Shown here: positions 9,108 through 23,443 of the stretch, piece by piece
Numbering within the stretch: the stretch's first letter is position 1
Layout of the letters: the number at the start of each line of letters is the position of its first letter
Assembly: GCA_022842065.1 (NCBI GenBank)
Contig: JALHQH010000012.1
Location: 186,001 to 250,000 of the forward strand
Direction of reading: 5' to 3'
From: Caldilineaceae bacterium
GTDB lineage: Bacteria > Chloroflexota > Anaerolineae > Caldilineales > Caldilineaceae
DNA: 64,000 nucleotides
The notes under the pieces: model-generated
The model's database searches: none
What the model saw: only the letters and a program-made list of their open reading frames with translations
What the model was told of the DNA's origin: nothing
Position numbers and translations under genes: made by a program

Positions 9108-9360
9108 GAGCACCCTCCCTAGTTTGAGCAGAACGTAACTACTTGATCTGCTTAGGGTAGGCTTGCGTGGCGGCGTAGACAATGGGCCAATGGTACTACT
9201 ATCCTGACAGGCGGGGCGGAAGGCGCGCTGATTGCTGGTGAAAGTAAGGGAGAAAACGTGTGGGCCGGCTGTGATACCAGCGCGGGTCAGGAAACAATTG
9301 GGGCTACGTTGTCGTCAATTACCTGCAATAATCCTGAAAAGTACGGGGAGGAGAGCGACA

Positions 9361-10581
9361 ATGTGTGAACTATGGAAAATGTTCGCTGCTTGGTTTCTTT
9401 TGTTCTGTCTGTTTATCTTAAGTCCTGTCTTGTTGATCTTGCTGGAGGACGAGCCGGCGCCGACGCCCGCATCGCTCGTGGCCCCCAACGCTACCTTGGT
9501 CTATTCGATGGCGGCGATCAATCAGATGACGGAGCGGTATTATGGATATCCACATCGAATCATTGTCAACTATCCTTGGCTGCTGTGGGCAGGTGTGCAG
9601 GCGGAATTTCTCGCCTCTCATCCTGACCCAGCCGAGAGTCCGTGGGTGACCTTTGTCTATAACTTCGTGACGCACAGCCGCCGCACACTTCCTCCATCGG
9701 AGACCATCGAGTGGGTTGCGCAGGATACAGTCTACTACTACCGCAAACAGTGGTTATACGCCTATAACCTGCGCACCAATGAAGAACAGGCCATGTTTGA
9801 TCGGAACGAGCTTGCCATCAAGAATTACAACCATCCCCAATCGATGCCAGCCTTTAATGGCGTCGACTTTTTCTGGACCGACTCGTATCCGGCCAGTTGT
9901 CAACAAGCTTTGACGTGTGCCGAGAAATATGAATATGCCTGTCAAACTGAGTTGATTGCCTACGAGCTTGCCACGAAAACCAGAAAAAGCCTGGGCGTTT
10001 TCCCCCACCGCACCACTGTGGGGTGGGCGACGGAGCAAAAAATTGTGGCCTATACGCCGTCAGGGGAACCGGGCTGTGATCCAAAGGTCTATCCAGGTAC
10101 AGCCCACGTGATCGACATTGCCACCGGTAAGGTGCAATGGTCGGGAAGTGGCGCCTTTGGCTACTCTGAAAAATTTATTAACATCATTGATCATACGCTG
10201 AGCTATGGTTACGCTGACCTCGACAAGCAGACGACCCATGTCATCAACCTTGATCCGGTCGCGCCGCCCCGTTCGCTCTATTATTTTGATGGCATTGTCA
10301 CCATGGGGACAGCCGGTGCCGATGTCTTGCTCTATACACCGCTGCCCCATGCCGCATCCGCGCAAGCCATCGGGCACCAAATCAGTTTGGGGGCATTTAA
10401 TCCGCGAACCGGCTGGAGCCAAAGGCTTGACGAAGGTCATCACATCGAAAGTGCGACGGGCGATGCGCACTACATTGCCTGGGCAACAAGTGACGGCGAC
10501 TTGTACGTTGCACCGGTCGCGCTAAAACCCGCTACCGATCCAACGCCGGTAAGTGGTACCCCGCCTGCTTCCTGGCGGTGA
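9361..10581 (+). CDS. Membrane-anchored protein of unknown function
   Basis: I chose the ATG at 9361 because GGGGAGGAG stands 7 nt upstream. The same frame is open from 9232 but the extension has no ribosome site. It encodes about 406 residues: a strongly hydrophobic anchor at 8-31 (AWFLLFCLFILSPVLLILL), then an extracytoplasmic region with scattered blade-like segments (LYAYNLRTNEEQAMF, AYELATKTRKSLGVF, HVIDIATGKVQWSG). The architecture recalls the propeller part of the genes near 1.4 and 4.6 kb, so it may be a distant relative without the carbohydrate-binding domain. It is transcribed divergently from the LVIVD-repeat gene. Function not recognised. Confidence 0.6.
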   Translation: MCELWKMFAAWFLLFCLFILSPVLLILLEDEPAPTPASLVAPNATLVYSMAAINQMTERYYGYPHRIIVNYPWLLWAGVQAEFLASHPDPAESPWVTFVYNFVTHSRRTLPPSETIEWVAQDTVYYYRKQWLYAYNLRTNEEQAMFDRNELAIKNYNHPQSMPAFNGVDFFWTDSYPASCQQALTCAEKYEYACQTELIAYELATKTRKSLGVFPHRTTVGWATEQKIVAYTPSGEPGCDPKVYPGTAHVIDIATGKVQWSGSGAFGYSEKFINIIDHTLSYGYADLDKQTTHVINLDPVAPPRSLYYFDGIVTMGTAGADVLLYTPLPHAASAQAIGHQISLGAFNPRTGWSQRLDEGHHIESATGDAHYIAWATSDGDLYVAPVALKPATDPTPVSGTPPASWR

Positions 10582-16023: not shown

Positions 16024-18240
16024 TTAAATTGTTGCCCCCTTGTCGCTGCTGGCCAACGGCAGCCGGCGCAATAATTGCGCATTGATGGCAACCACAACCG
16101 TACTCACCGACATCAACAGGGCACCGAAGGCTGGGGAGAGATTAAGACCCCAGGCGGCGAAGATGCCGGCCGCCAGTGGGATGGCCACAATGTTGTAACC
16201 AGCCGCCCACCACAGGTTCTGGATCATTTTGCGATGGGTGGCCCGACTTAGGGTAAAGATTTTGGCAACATCGAGTGGGTTGCTCTGCACAAGCACAATA
16301 TCGGCTGACTCAACCGCAACATCGGTACCGCTACCAATTGCGATCCCGATGTCCGCCCGCGTCAGCGCCGGCGCATCGTTCACCCCATCACCAACCATGG
16401 CCACCTTTTTGCCTTGGGCCAGGAATTCGCTCACCTGACGGTCTTTATGCTCAGGTAAGATCTCAGCGATATACCGGTCAATGCCAAGCTCTGCTGCCAC
16501 TGCCTTGGCCACCGCCTTGCTATCACCAGTCAACATGACCACTTCGATGCCCGTTTCCTGCAATTGCCCGATGGCCCTTTTGCTTTCTGGACGGATCACA
16601 TCAGCCAGGGCAAAGGCCGCCGTAACTTCTGTGCCATATACCAGGTAGACGACAGTTTGACCTTTCGCCTCTGTCTCGGTAATAAATGCTTGTAAGGGAG
16701 CCGGCGGCGCGACTTGGCGCAATTCCAACAACCGTGGGCCGCCGACGTAAATGGGCTGGCCATCGATCACGGCTTTGGCCCCGCGCCCTTTAATTGCTTC
16801 GAATGCACTGACACGGGGGATCCCAAGCTGTTGTTCCGTGGCCGCCGTGCGTATGGCCCGAGCAATGATATGTTCTGAATCACCCTCGACCGCTGCCGCC
16901 ATTGCCAATGCCTGTGCTGCTGACCAATCCGCAACAACGGCGCTATCGACAACACCCTGTTCCCCTTTCGTCAGCGTGCCGGTTTTGTCGAAAATTACGG
17001 TGTCAATATTCCGTGCCGCTTCCAGTGCCAGTCGATTGCGAATCAAAATCCCGTTGCGGGCGGCCAACGCCGTACTAATCGCGACGACCAGGGGTACCGC
17101 CAACCCAAGCGCATGGGGACAGGCAATCACTAATACCGTCGCCACCCGTTGGACAACAGCCACGTTAAAGCCGCTGGCCAGCGTCCAAGCTATCGCAGTA
17201 ATGATCGCAGCGGCCAGGGCAATATAAAAGAGCCAACCAGCGGCGCGATCCGCTAACACCTGTGTGGGTGATTTACTCTGCTGTGCATCTTGGACCAGCC
17301 GCATGATGCCGGAGAGTGCTGTCTCGTCACCGATCGCCGTCACCCGTACCCGCAGACTGCCATCGCCGTTCACCGTGCCGGCAATTACCTTGTAGCCCGA
17401 CTCCTTGCTGACGGGCAGCGATTCACCCGTAATCATCGCTTCATTCACATCGGAGCGACCTTCGACGACTTCCCCGTCAGCGGGTACGCTGGCTCCTGGC
17501 CGGACTAACATAAGATCGCCAATCTGCAAGTCGTGACTGGCGACCCGCTCCGTGGTGCCATCCGGCCGAATGCGCTCTGCCTCATCCGGCAGCAGTTTGG
17601 CCAGTTCGTTGAGCGCCCCCGATGCCTGGCGGACACTGCGCATCTCTAGCCAGTGGCCAAGCAACATGACATCAATGAGCAGGGCCATTTCCCAGAAGAA
17701 GCCACTCGCCGGGTCAATCCACAGCGTAGCCAAGCTGTAAATAAAGGCGACCGTAATCGCCAGCGAAATGAGCGTCATCATCCCCGGTTGGCGGGTGCGC
17801 ACTTCTGGGACAGCCATTTGCAGAAAGGGGATGCCCCCATAGGCAAAGATGATCCCGGCAAAGAGCGGGCCGATCCATTGGCTGCCGAAGAAATGGGGCA
17901 TGGTGAAGCCAAACCACATCTGCAACATGTGGCTATAGAGCAACACGGGCAGCGTCAGGACGAGACAGACCCAAAAACGATTACGAAATATCAATTCGTG
18001 ACCGCTGTGGTCTACCCCGTGACCAGCATGCGCATTGTGCGACATATGGCCTCCTGTTTCAAGTTGGTTCGCTTGCGGTTGCGCCGCTGCCTGTGCGGTG
18101 TGTCCGGTGTGCTTCTCATGCTGTGCATGTGTATCCCCAGTGATTGTAGAAGCTGCTGGCAGATGATGATCGTTGGTAGCCATTTGGCTATCCCCAGTTG
18201 GTCGCTTGGCTGGCTGTGTGTGCTGTTTTGCTGTGGTCAT
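16024..18240 (-). CDS. copB: CopB-type (P1B-3) copper-translocating P-type ATPase
   Basis: About 738 residues from the ATG at 18240, supported by AAGGAG 9 nt upstream. A His-rich cytoplasmic N-terminus (about 85 residues) replaces the usual CxxC domains. The ATPase core has TGES, the metal-channel motif CPH in [14 protein letters not shown], the phosphorylated Asp in [20 protein letters not shown], and the late-membrane motifs GYNIVAIP and [15 protein letters not shown] with MSxST is characteristic of CopB/P1B-3 pumps that export Cu (or Ag). The nucleotide-domain His-Pro dipeptide reads SEHIIA, with Ile in place of Pro. The ECF sigma gene lies 242 bp upstream on the same strand, with an ECF-like promoter between them. 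Confidence 0.92.
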
Positions 18241-18313
18241 AATAACTCGCTCCTTATTCCCAAAGTAGCTATTGATTGGCAATAGTGCCGCTTGTATCCT
18301 TTGCGCTTGTATA

Positions 18314-18339
18314 GACGGCTGAGATCCGGCGCGGTTACA
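18314..18339 (-). promoter_or_regulatory. Candidate ECF-sigma promoter of the copper ATPase gene
   Basis: On the minus strand TGTAACC (18339-18333) and CGTC (18317-18314, followed by TATA) are separated by 15 nt. This is the AAC/CGTC arrangement common to ECF promoters. It lies about 75 nt upstream of the ATPase ATG and directly downstream of the sigma gene. Assignment to that sigma factor is inference. Confidence 0.5.
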
Positions 18340-18482
18340 GTACACAATCAATCAAGGGGGATATTTACTAACATTGGGGCGCTAAATAGGGGTGAGAAAG
18401 GCTGAACCGGCTCAAACAAATCGTTCAATATTGATGGGCAGCACGGCACTTTTCAAGCAACCATGCCTTTCTGCTCGCCCAT

Positions 18483-19347: not shown

Positions 19348-19836
19348 CTAGGGTATCCAATTAGACTTAACCAGCAGTAATGTTTCCGGGGCAGCCGGAT
19401 CATTCGTTCGCAAATGCACGCGAAATAGATGCGGCCCAGCCATCCCTGCGTGCATCATATAATCAAGGACGAGCATGGTTTCCGCGCCAGGGTTGAGTGT
19501 CGTCGAACCGACGACCGCCGGGGGCGGTCAGCACCCCTCGACGACTTCGACCTGGGGTTCGCCCAAAATTTGCAAGGGCTGATCCCCAACATTTTGCAGC
19601 CGAAAGGCGCTGCGAACCGTTTGACCGAGTTTCACATCACCTTCGTCAATGCTCGTCTGGTCTACCACGAGGCTGGGCGCGCCCGTTACTTGGGGTGCTA
19701 CCGTTTTGCTGCCACCTAACCCGCGCCAGACGAAAATGCCACCGATACTGAACAGCAGCACACCAGCTAGGATCCAGATCCAATGGGAACTGCTTGACGG
19801 TTTTTGTGTTTGCTTTTGGAATCTTTTTTTCGTCAC
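19348..19836 (-). CDS. DUF1573-like membrane-anchored protein, candidate selenoprotein (in-frame UGA after Cys)
   Basis: A GTG start at 19836 lies 8 nt after AAGGAG. There is one N-terminal membrane anchor (HWIWILAGVLLFSIGGIFVW) and then a DUF1573/Ig-like domain (TSIDEGDVKLGQTVRSAF, LQNVGDQPLQIL). At codon 103 a UGA (19530-19528) follows a Cys codon. The same frame continues with PPPAVVGSTTLNPGAE ... GPHLFRVHLRTNDPAAPE and ends with TAG at 19348-19350, which is what the rest of this domain should look like. Read as selenocysteine, the product has 162 residues and a Cys-Sec-Pro-Pro site. A SECIS-like hairpin begins 12 nt after the UGA. The gene is last in an operon with the PCxCGC and Met-rich genes. 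The alternative is a nonsense mutation. Confidence 0.8.
19499..19515 (-). promoter_or_regulatory. Candidate bacterial SECIS hairpin for the DUF1573-like gene
   Basis: Minus-strand RNA 19515-19499 folds as GUCGUC-GGUUC-GACGAC: a perfect 6-bp stem with a 5-nt loop, or 7 bp with loop GUU. It starts 12 nt after the UGA at 19530-19528. The E. coli fdhF element has a hairpin of the same 17-nt size starting 11 nt after UGA, with G and U in the apical loop that SelB contacts. SelB binding here is inferred. Confidence 0.7.
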
Positions 19837-19845
19837 AGGATCTCC

Positions 19846-20331
19846 TTATTGCACGGTGTCGGTTACATCGGGGCCGATCACATGGGGATGTGGTCCGCTG
19901 TAGCCGTATTGCGTATCAATTGCCGCATGAATCGCTGGTATGGCTTGTCCTTCATTCACCAGCTTTATCACTTGGCGGGTGATGTCAAGGCAGACGGCAC
20001 AGTAGGCGGCATGATTATCATACTGCGCCATGCTGCCATCGACGTTGAAGTCAGCAATGTAGCAAGCTAGATTATCCTTGTGGGCTAAAGCTTTCTCGCA
20101 GCCACAATGGCAGGGAATTTGGGCGAGAATGTCAGGCTGATCGGTGGCGTACTGATAGGCCACCGCTGCCTCAGTGCCAGCCTCTTGCACAAAATCCGGT
20201 AGGTGTGCGTGCTGATTTGAGCTCAGCGCTTGCGTGGCACTGTGGGCAGTACGGTGCCAGAATTGGTAGCCGATGCCAATGCTACTGCTAGCGAGTACGA
20301 GTAGCAGAAGTAGAACAGGCCATTTACGCAA
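19846..20331 (-). CDS. PCxCGC-motif exported protein (PCYCGC family)
   Basis: I chose the TTG at 20331 because TTAAGGAGATG stands 7 nt upstream. Longer frames would run into the preceding gene. The 161-residue product has an N-terminal membrane segment (WPVLLLLLVLASSSIGIGY) and the motif IPCHCGCEKALAHKDNLACY, followed by YCAVCLD. This matches the PCYCGC-motif (lipo)protein family (PF13798-like), exported Cys/His-rich proteins thought to bind metal. It ends inside the ribosome site of the DUF1573-like gene and follows the Met-rich gene, so the three are co-transcribed. The metal and exact role are not proven; copper is likely from the context. Confidence 0.8.
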   Translation of the reverse strand: MRKWPVLLLLLVLASSSIGIGYQFWHRTAHSATQALSSNQHAHLPDFVQEAGTEAAVAYQYATDQPDILAQIPCHCGCEKALAHKDNLACYIADFNVDGSMAQYDNHAAYCAVCLDITRQVIKLVNEGQAIPAIHAAIDTQYGYSGPHPHVIGPDVTDTVQ

Positions 20332-20428
20332 TTTACATCTCCTTAACCAATGGGGGAGAGCAGCTTTTTGGAGGTCGATAACTTCCTGAAAACTGCTCTC
20401 CTTGCTGCTGTTTGACTGAATGCTACAC

Positions 20429-21439
20429 TTAATGGGAATTAACTGCCCAGGTAAAGGTTTGTTCCGTATCAGCCGGCAAGCCACCAATGACAAGTGAGAG
20501 TTCGGCCGCATTGGTTAGGTCTAGCTCAGCTGTGCGCGCGAAGCGGAGTATGCCCTTGATATGGTGGCCTTCTGGGGTATCTGTCTCCCAAGCTGTTGGG
20601 GTTAACTCGCTGTCACCGAGCAAGAGCTTGGCGCTTTGGGCTAAATCAATCGCAATTGCTTCCGTATGGGAATTGAAGGCCACGTTGAAATCAAGGGTGT
20701 CAGCGTCGGTCTCGTGCAGATTGATGGCTGTTACGACGATTTCCACCGTACCGACCTGGGCTGTCTGGGGTGAATCCGCTGCGACTGCGCCGGTGGTAGC
20801 CGTCATTGGCGTATTGTGCTGCATGTGACCACTCATGTCCATCGTCTGGTGCATTTGGTGCAACTCATGCATCTCTGCCATCATCTGGTCCATCATCTGG
20901 CCCATGATGCCGTGCATGGCTTCCATGTCCATCATCGGCATCTCCATCATGCCGCCATCCATCATACCCTTGCCTTCACCCATTGCCATCGGCATAGTCA
21001 TGGGCATCGTGTGCGTCATGGGCATGTTGCCCTGCATCATCGGCATGTCACCACCCATCATCCCCTGCATGTGATCCATCATCCCATGCATCTGGCCCAT
21101 CATTTGCATCATCATGCCCATCATCTGCATCCGGCGGCCCATTGTGGTCATCTGCTCACCCATGCCGGCTTGCTGCATCGGCATCTTGTCCATCATGCCC
21201 TGGCCTTCACCCATCGCGGGGCCTTGGTGCCGGCTGTGATCAGTCATGGGCGGTGTCGTGCCGGTCATTGGCATGGTGTGAGTCATTGGTTGATTGCCGT
21301 GGTGCTGCTGCCAGTCGGTGCTACCGGCGGCGCTGACGGTGGTAGCTGAATTGGCAATTAGTAAGAATAGCGCCGTGAGCAGCGCGCATGAAAAGAGGGG
21401 GATCGATAGATAACGGCGTAGACGTTGATTGAATTGCAT
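20429..21439 (-). CDS. Exported Met/His-rich copper-binding-like protein
   Basis: 336 residues from the ATG at 21439, preceded by GAGG. A signal peptide (YLSIPLFSCALLTALFLLIA) is followed by about 165 residues with more than 50 Met plus many His, in MxM, MMxM and HxxM clusters. Two internal near-duplicates are visible: MTHTMPMT, and GEGQGMMD/GEGKGMMD. The C-terminal about 120 residues form a soluble domain of unknown type (VEIVVTAINLHETDADTLDF). Met-rich periplasmic segments of this kind bind Cu(I). The gene is the second of the leftward operon (small membrane protein, this gene, PCxCGC, DUF1573). Confidence 0.75.
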   Translation of the reverse strand: MQFNQRLRRYLSIPLFSCALLTALFLLIANSATTVSAAGSTDWQQHHGNQPMTHTMPMTGTTPPMTDHSRHQGPAMGEGQGMMDKMPMQQAGMGEQMTTMGRRMQMMGMMMQMMGQMHGMMDHMQGMMGGDMPMMQGNMPMTHTMPMTMPMAMGEGKGMMDGGMMEMPMMDMEAMHGIMGQMMDQMMAEMHELHQMHQTMDMSGHMQHNTPMTATTGAVAADSPQTAQVGTVEIVVTAINLHETDADTLDFNVAFNSHTEAIAIDLAQSAKLLLGDSELTPTAWETDTPEGHHIKGILRFARTAELDLTNAAELSLVIGGLPADTEQTFTWAVNSH

Positions 21440-21892: not shown

Positions 21893-22070
21893 ATGAGAAA
21901 CAGCTAACCATTGACAAAGCTTTGCCGACGCGCCTTTTTAGAAGGAATCGTTGGCCCACCCTTACTTTTTAGTTTACCAGGATAGCCAGGGCGGCTGGCG
22001 CGTTACTGTCGAAGTGCGCAAGGTACAGCCGGAGACGATTCGCCAAAACTTTGTTATTACGATTCCATAG
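21893..22070 (+). pseudogene. Remnant of a small exported gene
   Basis: An excellent ribosome site (ACAGGAGG) precedes an ATG that stops after four codons (MRNS). Beyond it one frame gives RRAFLEGIVGPPLLFSLP, like a Tat signal, and another frame gives DSQGGWRVTVEVRKVQPETI, ending at TAG 22068-22070. The second piece resembles the C-terminal beta-strands of FixH/YtkA-like or CopC-like domains, but this is weak. Several lesions make it a decayed gene directly downstream of the regulated promoter. Confidence 0.45.
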
Positions 22071-22092
22071 TTTCCGAAAGGAACACTTTATC

Positions 22093-22698
22093 ATGCATAT
22101 TTATAGCAAATTAACAGTTTTACTCATTTTACCTCTTCTCCTGCTAAGCGCTTGTACAGGTGGTATGCCTGGCATGTCCGGCGACTCCAACGGGAGCATG
22201 CAGAGTATGGACAAGGCAACCACGATGCCAATGGATCATAGCAACATGCAGATGGATGCATCCCAACCATTCGACGCCCAGTTCATTGACAGCATGATCG
22301 AACATCATCAGGGTGCGATTGATATGGCGCAGGCAGCGTTGCAACAGGCGGAACACGCTGAACTCAAAACAATGGCCGAGGCGATTATTACCGCCCAGAA
22401 CACCGAGATCGAGCAGATGCAGGGATGGCGCACAGCCTGGTATCCTGATTTGCCCCCCACCGGCGGCATGGACATGAGCATGGGCGATATGGTGATCAGC
22501 AGCGATGAGAACATTCCTTTTGACCAGCGCTTTCTGACAGCCATGATTTCTCACCATCAGGGTGCGATCGAGATGGCGCAGATGGCGCAGCAGATGGCCG
22601 AACACCAGGAGATCAAAGACTTAGCTGATGCCATCAGCACTGCTCAACAGGCGGAGATCGAGCAAATGCAGCAGTGGGAGCAGGCGTGGTTCCAGTAA
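22093..22698 (+). CDS. DUF305 lipoprotein, two DUF305 units
   Basis: 201 residues from the ATG at 22093, with AAAGGAAC upstream. A lipobox (LLLLSAC) places it outside the membrane. A Met-rich stretch (MPGMSGDSNGSMQSMD, MPMDHSNMQMD) precedes two helical DUF305 repeats. Each repeat carries the family signature (SMIEHHQGAIDMAQ and AMISHHQGAIEMAQ) and ends with a Trp-rich tail. DUF305 proteins are ferritin-like helical bundles often found in copper-resistance loci; biochemical function is unproven. It is the first intact gene of the rightward operon. Confidence 0.88.
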   Translation: MHIYSKLTVLLILPLLLLSACTGGMPGMSGDSNGSMQSMDKATTMPMDHSNMQMDASQPFDAQFIDSMIEHHQGAIDMAQAALQQAEHAELKTMAEAIITAQNTEIEQMQGWRTAWYPDLPPTGGMDMSMGDMVISSDENIPFDQRFLTAMISHHQGAIEMAQMAQQMAEHQEIKDLADAISTAQQAEIEQMQQWEQAWFQ

Positions 22699-23005
22699 GA
22701 TTATTGTTTAGTTCAGGTGAAAATTCGGGTGCGCTGGTGGCCGTAGACAGGTAGAAGGAGCATTCGTTCCGGAAATCAGACTTTTTACGCTTTAGCCGGC
22801 AAATGCATAAGACGAGCCAAGTGGGAGATCCGCACGCGCCATTTGGAGGAGTTGCTCGATAATGTCTTGGGCTTGCTGCCGGTAATGTTGCAATGCGCCG
22901 ATTTTATACAGGTCGAAGAAATCGCCCACTACATGACGGTGGTTGGCACGCTCACTATCTTCAAAGCGCACAAGACTCCATAAGCATATACGAAAAAGGA
23001 AAGCA
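22699..23005. other. Unassigned 307-nt stretch
   Basis: Both strands have plausible short frames. One on the minus strand ends DIIEQLLQMARADLPLGSSY (stop at 22792). One on the plus strand reads RTRHLEELLDNVLGLLPVML and stops at 22981-22983. Neither has a ribosome site or a recognised family, and they exclude each other. It may be a decayed gene. No terminator is obvious. Confidence 0.35.
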
Positions 23006-23443
23006 ATGAAATTTGTATACAACCCTTTATCTTGGCACCAACATCGCGGATTCAAGCAACTCAGTGTGATGTTGAGTTTGCTACTAGGATTACTCAGCGT
23101 ATTCGGTTGCAGCAGCAATACATCCCCAACGTTGCCGACACCCGTGGGAGCAACCAGCAGCCTGAATACGTTTATTTTCCTTTACACAGACAACTGACTA
23201 CCTTGAAAGGAGATGCAGCCCATCGTGAATGGGCTTGAACGTGAGTTTTCTGAACAGTTTGCCTTCGAGCGGAGCGATGCCAACACAGAAGACGGCCAAG
23301 CGTTCTTGCGCGCGTACGGTCTGCGCGCTCATCCCAGCTATGTCATCGTCGCACCGGATGGGCAAGTGCTCTGGCAGTTTACGGGAGCGCTTAGCGCCGA
23401 CGCCTTGCGCCAACAGATGTGTCGGTATGGCAGCCAATGTTAA
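23006..23443 (+). CDS. Thioredoxin-like lipoprotein, candidate selenoprotein with UxxU active site
   Basis: The ATG at 23006 follows AAAAAGGA. A signal with lipobox LLSVFGC (Cys35) precedes a thioredoxin fold: beta-strand TFIFLYTDN, active site, helix EMQPIVNGLEREF, then FERSDANTEDGQAFLRAYGL, a cis-Pro loop (AHPSYVIV) and DGQVLWQFTG. At both active-site positions the codon is UGA (23195-23197, residue 64, and 23204-23206, residue 67), enclosing Leu-Pro. The site therefore reads Sec-Leu-Pro-Sec where relatives would have Cys-x-Pro-Cys. The frame is otherwise open to 23443 (145 residues). A SECIS-like hairpin starts 10 nt after the second UGA. If UGA were a stop, the protein would end just before its active site. 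Likely an extracytoplasmic oxidoreductase. Confidence 0.82.
23217..23235 (+). promoter_or_regulatory. Candidate bacterial SECIS hairpin for the thioredoxin-like gene
   Basis: AGCCCAU-CGUGA-AUGGGCU is a perfect 7-bp stem with a 5-nt loop containing GU. It begins 10 nt after the second UGA (19 nt after the first). The inner 17-nt hairpin starts 11 nt after UGA, the same as in E. coli fdhF. A single element would have to serve both UGA codons. Confidence 0.7.

Follow-up and report, generated by a model that had tools for sequence, protein, structure and literature searches.

A predicted exported thioredoxin-fold lipoprotein with probable selenocysteine at both catalytic positions in a Caldilineaceae bacterium

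The double-UGA gene and its predicted protein

The stretch of DNA analyzed here (the window, 64,000 nucleotides [nt]) comes from a Caldilineaceae bacterium of the phylum Chloroflexota (contig JALHQH010000012.1 of assembly GCA_022842065.1, positions 186,001 to 250,000). It contains a gene with two in-frame UGA codons, predicted to encode a thioredoxin-fold lipoprotein with selenocysteine (Sec, U) at both catalytic positions, a motif written UxxU. A hairpin behind the two codons is the candidate selenocysteine insertion sequence (SECIS). The features of the gene are as follows.

22996 to 23000, plus strand: AAGGA, probable ribosome-binding site of the ATG at 23006 (from the sequence)
23006 to 23443, plus strand: predicted UxxU thioredoxin-fold lipoprotein gene, 145 amino acids with UGA read as Sec, ending in TAA
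23108 to 23110, plus strand: Cys35, predicted lipobox cysteine, invariant in 12 of the 12 rows of alignment A2 and presumably lipidated
23195 to 23197, plus strand: UGA 1, predicted Sec64, N-terminal catalytic position (translation, PDB sequence alignment, homologues)
23204 to 23206, plus strand: UGA 2, predicted Sec67, C-terminal catalytic position (translation, PDB sequence alignment, homologues)
23213 to 23443, plus strand: fragment of 76 amino acids from an internal ATG, of the same kind as the database relatives and not considered a real gene (open reading frame list, protein searches)
23217 to 23235, plus strand: predicted SECIS hairpin AGCCCAT-CGTGA-ATGGGCT, with arms at 23217 to 23223 and 23229 to 23235 and the loop at 23224 to 23228

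Between 23006 and 23443, TGA occurs in frame only at codons 64 and 67, which are separated by Leu-Pro, and neither TAA nor TAG occurs before the terminal TAA. The translation thus agrees with an earlier note made from the sequence alone, which had described a frame open from the ATG to 23443 except for UGA at 23195 and 23204. AAAGGAAAGCA precedes the ATG at 23006. The N terminus, read without a signal-peptide predictor, resembles that of a lipoprotein (VFGC-SS, with a hydrophobic stretch ahead of Cys35 and Phe as the -2 residue), and the protein would be lipid anchored outside the membrane.

When Cys is entered for both UGAs, the read-through product scores above the cut-off of the Pfam thioredoxin family PF00085 (29.7 bits; cut-off, 23.5), and in the best PDB sequence alignment both UGA positions fall on the cysteines of the CGPC motif of 6zom, placing the UGAs where a CxxC pair belongs, as had been proposed. 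A structure model of the read-through protein shows a confident thioredoxin fold in which the redox pair opens helix 1 and a cis-Pro loop is present; Pro110, invariant in 12 of 12 rows, occupies the cis-Pro place. The best-matching structures are thioredoxins, so that model and structures agree with the fold suggested earlier. By title, the VIA-align rows are mostly thioredoxins or thioredoxin-tagged constructs, and other families are still possible among them.

The protein misses the cut-off of the classical thioredoxin equivalog TIGR01068 (31.5 of 96.8 bits). In Pfam, the peroxiredoxin-type domains PF00578 and PF13911 give no row at E ≤ 1 and PF08534 (Redoxin) stays below its cut-off (14.8 of 26.6 bits); in NCBIfam, NF047660 scores 12.2 of 105 bits, and NF041057 and NF041115 are unlisted at E ≤ 1. 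Similarly, an NCBIfam scan of 20 distinct family members (12 in one set and 10 in a second, with L008 and L009 in both) reached no family cut-off, which for part of the members was judged from too-weak E-values. The best NF041057 score among these members was 23.5 of 190 bits.

Relatives and the downstream hairpin

To find relatives, one genome per bacterial or archaeal species was scanned with DNA patterns from the downstream part of the gene (MQPIVNGL and one other), with the CxxC site excluded. The scan returned 11 loci, belonging to five Caldilineaceae, two Anaerolineaceae, and four other Anaerolineae. The codon at position 1 is TGA in all 11, and that at position 2 is TGA in eight and TGC in three; in the window and the 11 relatives, a stop at either site is always TGA, never TAA or TAG. 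A profile search of 400 Chloroflexota genomes, with at most 10 candidates scored per genome, matched 212 of them at E ≤ 1e-10, and many of the matches listed lack a stop and resemble ordinary CxxC thioredoxins.

We combined the window gene and the 11 relatives with loci from the 30 best (L034 to L063) and 20 hand-picked (L064 to L083) matches into a set of 59 genes, leaving out L034 and L035 (the same genes as L001 and L006) and L079 (the same as L063). Two further UxxU genes (L093 and L094) and one UxxC gene (L095) stand outside these counts. By motif, the set holds 13 UxxU, 32 UxxC, 1 UxxS, and 13 CxxC genes; the homologues therefore alternate between Cys and UGA at each of the two positions, an alternation for which the earlier note had proposed to look. 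The frames of the 47 genes beyond the window and its 11 relatives were cut at TAA or TAG and so are unable to reveal these codons at the sites. Where TAA or TAG appears in three of the matches listed, it stands at the gene end (L095 and L097) or beyond the matched domain (L096).

In a tree of the domain, 12 UxxU rows form one clade (98/91), and the 13th, L066, lies outside it at the end of a long branch; the tree leaves many forks unresolved. Past the hairpin, the nonsynonymous rate (dN) is below the synonymous rate (dS) in all eight chosen pairs, with dS saturated in two of them. For the window against L001, counted in codons from +14, dN is 0.40 and dS is 1.85, and for L009 against L011 the values are 0.09 and 1.51. 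As judged from these codon comparisons, the reading frame past the UGAs and the hairpin is under purifying selection. The double UGA in frame is not a chance occurrence, given the PF00085 match, the conservation of TGA in homologues, purifying selection, and the use of UGA as an ordinary stop nearby.

The published bacterial SECIS model, as given in the accessible part of the review PMC13188914, has a loop of 3 to 9 nt, a stem of 4 to 16 base pairs, a G within the first two loop positions, a loop 16 to 37 nt from the UGA, and an energy of at most -7.5. In the window gene, one hairpin fits this model for both UGAs, with a distance to the loop of 26 nt for UGA 1 and 17 nt for UGA 2, suggesting that a single SECIS probably serves the two selenocysteines. 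A strict test of the model, in which only contiguous stems were allowed, found it for UGA 1 in 35 of 46 genes and for UGA 2 in 11 of 13, compared with 2 of the 13 Cys genes and 189 of 4,333 ordinary codons of 13 window frames.

The pairing itself is also conserved. Across the 46 UGA genes, the seven pairs are formed in 90.7% of cells (85.3% in shuffles), and slid pairings reach 46.6% at most. Two-sided changes occur in five of the seven pairs (1 of 500 shuffles as high) and in 17 cells in total (0 of 500), counts to be read with the caveat that rows from kin beat shuffles more easily and that the structure was derived from the same sequences. Neither the slid control nor the Cys genes answer this caveat in full. 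Compared with synonymous shuffles, folding energy gives mean z values of -1.71 (12 UxxU genes), -1.10 (23 UxxC genes), and -0.30 (5 CxxC genes), a measure that is only moderately informative, with the pair counts and the model test being better. Rfam at its gathering score found nothing in the window, and ARAGORN found no tRNA there.

The search for relatives brought further UGA-bearing genes to light. Genome G010 carries three UxxU thioredoxin-like genes (L010, L093, and L094); in L094 (WUSTU), the motif context is like that of the UxxC group, which suggests, without proving it, an independent gain of the second Sec and thus a second origin of UxxU. A second UGA-bearing group of thioredoxin-like genes (L080, L081, L082, L064, L065, L077, L055, L078, and L095) has UxxC and, in one case, UxxS; by eye its members are membrane anchored and have no lipoprotein start. 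The strict SECIS model fits only L080 among the eight of them tested (all except L095). Directly upstream of the UxxU gene in L006 lies a gene (9341 to 9955) that is TlpA-like by eye and itself contains an in-frame UGA, as part of the UxxC motif HSWUQPC.

Selenocysteine machinery and neighboring genes

SelB scores over its cut-off in 9 of the 11 relatives' genomes. A tRNA-Sec scoring above 66 bits (150 candidates scored per genome) is likewise present in 9 of the 11, and ARAGORN identifies every one of these as tRNA-Sec, with anticodon UCA. In G001, two partial SelB matches on two contigs apparently represent one split SelB; the best tRNA-Sec matches in G001 and G007 are Leu and Ser tRNAs. Two parts of the machinery for which the earlier note had asked, SelB and tRNA-Sec, are thus found in most of the relatives' genomes, and G007, which is taken up below, shows neither over cut-off. 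Another 28 genomes were divided by their best family match: SelB occurs in all 23 that have UGA in this match and in 2 of the 5 in which it is CxxC. Use of Sec looks common in Chloroflexota.

The window has a second gene with an in-frame UGA, and both genes lie among copper-related neighbors, listed here.

16024 to 18351, minus strand: copper-type P-type ATPase, context (TIGR01511, 595 bits; cut-off, 397)
19348 to 19836, minus strand: DUF1573-like gene with an in-frame UGA (19530 to 19528) in VVEGCU, second predicted selenoprotein of the locus (profile scores, homologues)
19499 to 19515, minus strand: predicted SECIS hairpin of the DUF1573-like gene, GTCGTCG-GTT-CGACGAC, with its loop 19 nt from the UGA
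19846 to 20511, minus strand: PCYCGC-motif protein (PF13798), a Cys form related to the CYCXC (OS_HP4) (seleno)protein family NF041379, below the cut-off of that family
22051 to 22698, plus strand: DUF305/CopM-type metallochaperone lipoprotein, context (Pfam, NCBIfam)

The DUF1573-like protein stays below the cut-offs of Pfam (24.8 of 26.1 bits) and NCBIfam NF041425 (22.2 of 100 bits). Homologues were found in 4 of the 14 genomes searched, with UGA at the same place in G002 and G348, Cys in G010, and a damaged gene in G007. A model SECIS also lies behind the UGA of the G002 gene, its pairing kept despite sequence change. That one locus holds two independent UGA genes, each followed by a model SECIS, suggests decoding of Sec by the source organism. 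The nearest known proteins are DUF1573 (seleno)proteins of the OS_HP2 type (NF041425, PF07610), and the window protein has its UGA in the Gly-Cys-Cys motif; this motif reads GCU in the window, in contrast to the UGC given for DUF1573 selenoproteins in the accessible table of PMC13188914.

The UxxU gene lies 4.7 kb from the copper P-type ATPase, and the description of the region as a copper locus stands. UxxU genes are found close to copper ATPases more often than expected, in a test whose limit of 6 kb was chosen after the data had been seen, from which one of the three UxxU genes of G010 (the third, with no ATPase in its vicinity) was omitted, and in which several contigs are too short for a neighbor to show. 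In four loci, cytochrome c genes immediately precede the UxxU gene, and a CcdA/DsbD-type protein is encoded near the UxxU gene of one relative. In G348 (L089, 10517 to 12856), a mercury(II) reductase (MerA) and a MerR-family regulator are encoded a few kilobases from the UxxU gene.

Known families, alternative readings, and function

Among 5.8 billion predicted proteins, a search by profile found 210 matches, 120 of which were listed. Of these 120, 118 are fragments starting at a Met behind the UGAs, namely 117 of 119 new ones (72 to 97 residues, one of them the window's own) and P0002. The other two (P0004 and P0005) are full length with Trp at both positions, evidently because UGA was called as Trp. 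No full-length CxxC form is among the 120 listed, in a search that favors proteins sharing words with the query. A first protein search gave one match, a truncated relative; a plasmid protein search gave three haloarchaeal matches annotated trxA, and a plasmid DNA search gave none.

In the accessible part of PMC13188914, the great majority of selenoprotein families in prokaryotes carry just one Sec, thioredoxin (PF00085) is tabulated as UxxC with one Sec, and UxxU is given for Prx-like PF00578, FmdB, and metal-binding NF041115. The GOS paper, in the portion available, mentions UxxU once, for a Prx-like family (PMC2398784). The open-access literature searched, as far as its text was available, does not name a UxxU protein of the thioredoxin family. 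The earlier remark that no described family is known to have this motif accordingly stands for thioredoxins, which are absent as UxxU from the available PMC13188914 table, and falls for UxxU itself, which has precedents in the three families just named.

Compared with the Sec thioredoxins tabulated in PMC13188914, the window protein shares the fold, a Pfam score above the cut-off, and Sec at the first catalytic position; it differs in that the second catalytic Cys is also UGA, in being a predicted lipoprotein, and in lying far below the TIGR01068 cut-off. The Prx-like UxxC/UxxU oxidoreductases (PF00578), as far as their tabulated entry goes, share with it the UxxU redox motif, with its two Sec at a distance of three residues, but they are a peroxiredoxin-type family, whereas the window protein matches PF00085 and has thioredoxins as its best structures. 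The SelL-type diselenide family attributed to Shchedrina et al. (2007) is reportedly also peroxiredoxin-type, with a UxxU redox motif. The metal-binding (seleno)protein NF041115 likewise has two Sec in UxxU and a link to metal handling; its match lies in the N-terminal portion of a copper ATPase, and we take it to be a heavy-metal-associated domain, not a thioredoxin. NF041057 (Rcas_1661 thioredoxin-like (seleno)lipoprotein) and NF047660 (HUIPC) are also thioredoxin-like (seleno)proteins, the former also a lipoprotein, but both have a single Sec, as UxxC, in the available review table (PMC13188914).

Taken as a whole, the gene likely encodes a predicted exported lipoprotein with a thioredoxin domain and the motif Sec64-Leu-Pro-Sec67, in which a single SECIS acts on both UGAs. 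The double-Sec thioredoxin-fold reading first put forward for this gene is supported by the UGA/Cys alternation, the covarying hairpin, and the fold model, with Sec itself predicted. Several observations weigh against it. The strict contiguous-stem model misses 11 of the 46 UGA genes, including the UxxU rows L040 and L044; the number of further pair types, 9 against 8.3 in shuffles (206 of 500), is not raised; and the 13 Cys genes show pairing in 54.9% of cells, somewhat more than the 50.3% averaged by their shuffles, of which 28 of 500 come out as high. Efficiency may suffer when one hairpin directs the decoding of two UGAs spaced by 9 nt. G007, which has an intact UxxU gene (L007), has no SelB, SelD, or tRNA-Sec over cut-off, and its DUF1573 gene (L087) has UGA, TAG, a broken frame, and no model hairpin; its assembly is possibly incomplete or error prone, or the lineage is possibly losing Sec. 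SelB is over its cut-off in 306 of the 400 Chloroflexota genomes sampled, so common in the phylum that its presence is weak evidence. Among genomes with matches listed, it is found in 35 of 40 UGA genomes (P = 0.057 against the rest), the exceptions being G001, G396, G228, G270, and G174, with the place of the UGA unchecked for some. Finally, 8 of the 13 UxxU genes have no copper ATPase within 6 kb, and the assignment of function is based on gene neighborhood alone.

The main rival accepts both UGAs as Sec and holds that UxxU is mainly a soft-metal ligand (for copper or mercury) that hands metal to the ATPase or to metallochaperones. The copper ATPase and CopM neighborhood, the mercury genes near the G348 gene, and the existence of a UxxU metal-binding selenoprotein family (NF041115, in the accessible part of PMC13188914) all favor it. 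We nevertheless consider it unlikely, as the domain is, by sequence and fold, a thioredoxin rather than a heavy-metal-associated domain, with the cis-Pro place taken by Pro110 in all 12 rows, the redox architecture is kept in UxxC and CxxC sister genes, and cytochrome c genes stand directly upstream at four UxxU loci. It is also improbable that only one UGA (2 or 1) is decoded efficiently and that the other mostly terminates, leaving the double-Sec form a minor product. Such a scheme draws on the unequal loop spacing of the two UGAs and on their one shared hairpin, but UxxC relatives use the same hairpin at 26 to 27 nt for UGA 1 alone, so that the spacing seems kept by selection, and UGA is conserved at both sites across the 12-row clade.

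That the gene is decaying, or is two short genes whose UGAs are true stops and whose 76-amino-acid part restarts at the internal ATG, is very improbable. Fragments of just this kind dominate the listed database relatives, and the ATG at 23213 of the window has AAGGAG ahead of it, with almost no spacing; this AAGGAG, however, is absent from the other rows. Both versions were rejected because the stops at the sites are TGA only in the window and its 11 relatives, relatives have Cys at the UGA codons, and purifying selection acts on both sides of the UGAs; the covarying hairpin and the position of TAA or TAG in the three listed matches (at the gene end or outside the matched domain) also argue against them. 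The chance that UGA means tryptophan in the source organism, giving WxxW, is negligible, even with the Trp residues of P0004 and P0005 in its favor, and this reading too was rejected. UGA ends 4 of 15 frames picked around the gene (itself included), where read-through would add 5 to 249 codons, and we see no sign of general recoding; moreover, relatives have Cys at the site, and SelB and a UCA tRNA-Sec are each present in 9 of the 11 relatives' genomes.

On the double-Sec thioredoxin reading, both UGAs are presumably decoded as Sec, and the resulting redox pair would cycle between diselenol and diselenide. Most likely, to go by its neighbors, the protein would be an exported diselenide/thiol oxidoreductase for copper and cytochrome c proteins. 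The first selenol would attack disulfides, or copper-damaged thiols, of such exported proteins, and the second would resolve the mixed bond. The diselenol pair would form a fast, strongly reducing couple that resists over-oxidation, and the UxxU protein would be recharged from a thiol carrier in the membrane, for example a CcdA/DsbD-type protein like that encoded near one relative. On balance, we lean toward a wider reading, in which a single 19-nt in-frame SECIS yields two Sec three codons apart and so a thioredoxin with a diselenide as its entire catalytic pair. The Chloroflexota UxxU lipoprotein family would then have come from a UxxC form, would be tied to extracytoplasmic handling of copper and cytochrome c, and would be nearly hidden in protein databases through gene callers cutting at the UGAs.

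The 118 fragment entries among the 120 listed, together with the two Trp entries, point to a systematic annotation error. A conserved thioredoxin with predicted Sec at both catalytic positions makes it testable what a diselenide adds over a selenenylsulfide, and the gene makes it testable whether two UGAs at a distance of 9 nt can both be served by one bacterial SECIS. The copper neighborhood would provide a concrete physiological setting for a UxxU thioredoxin.
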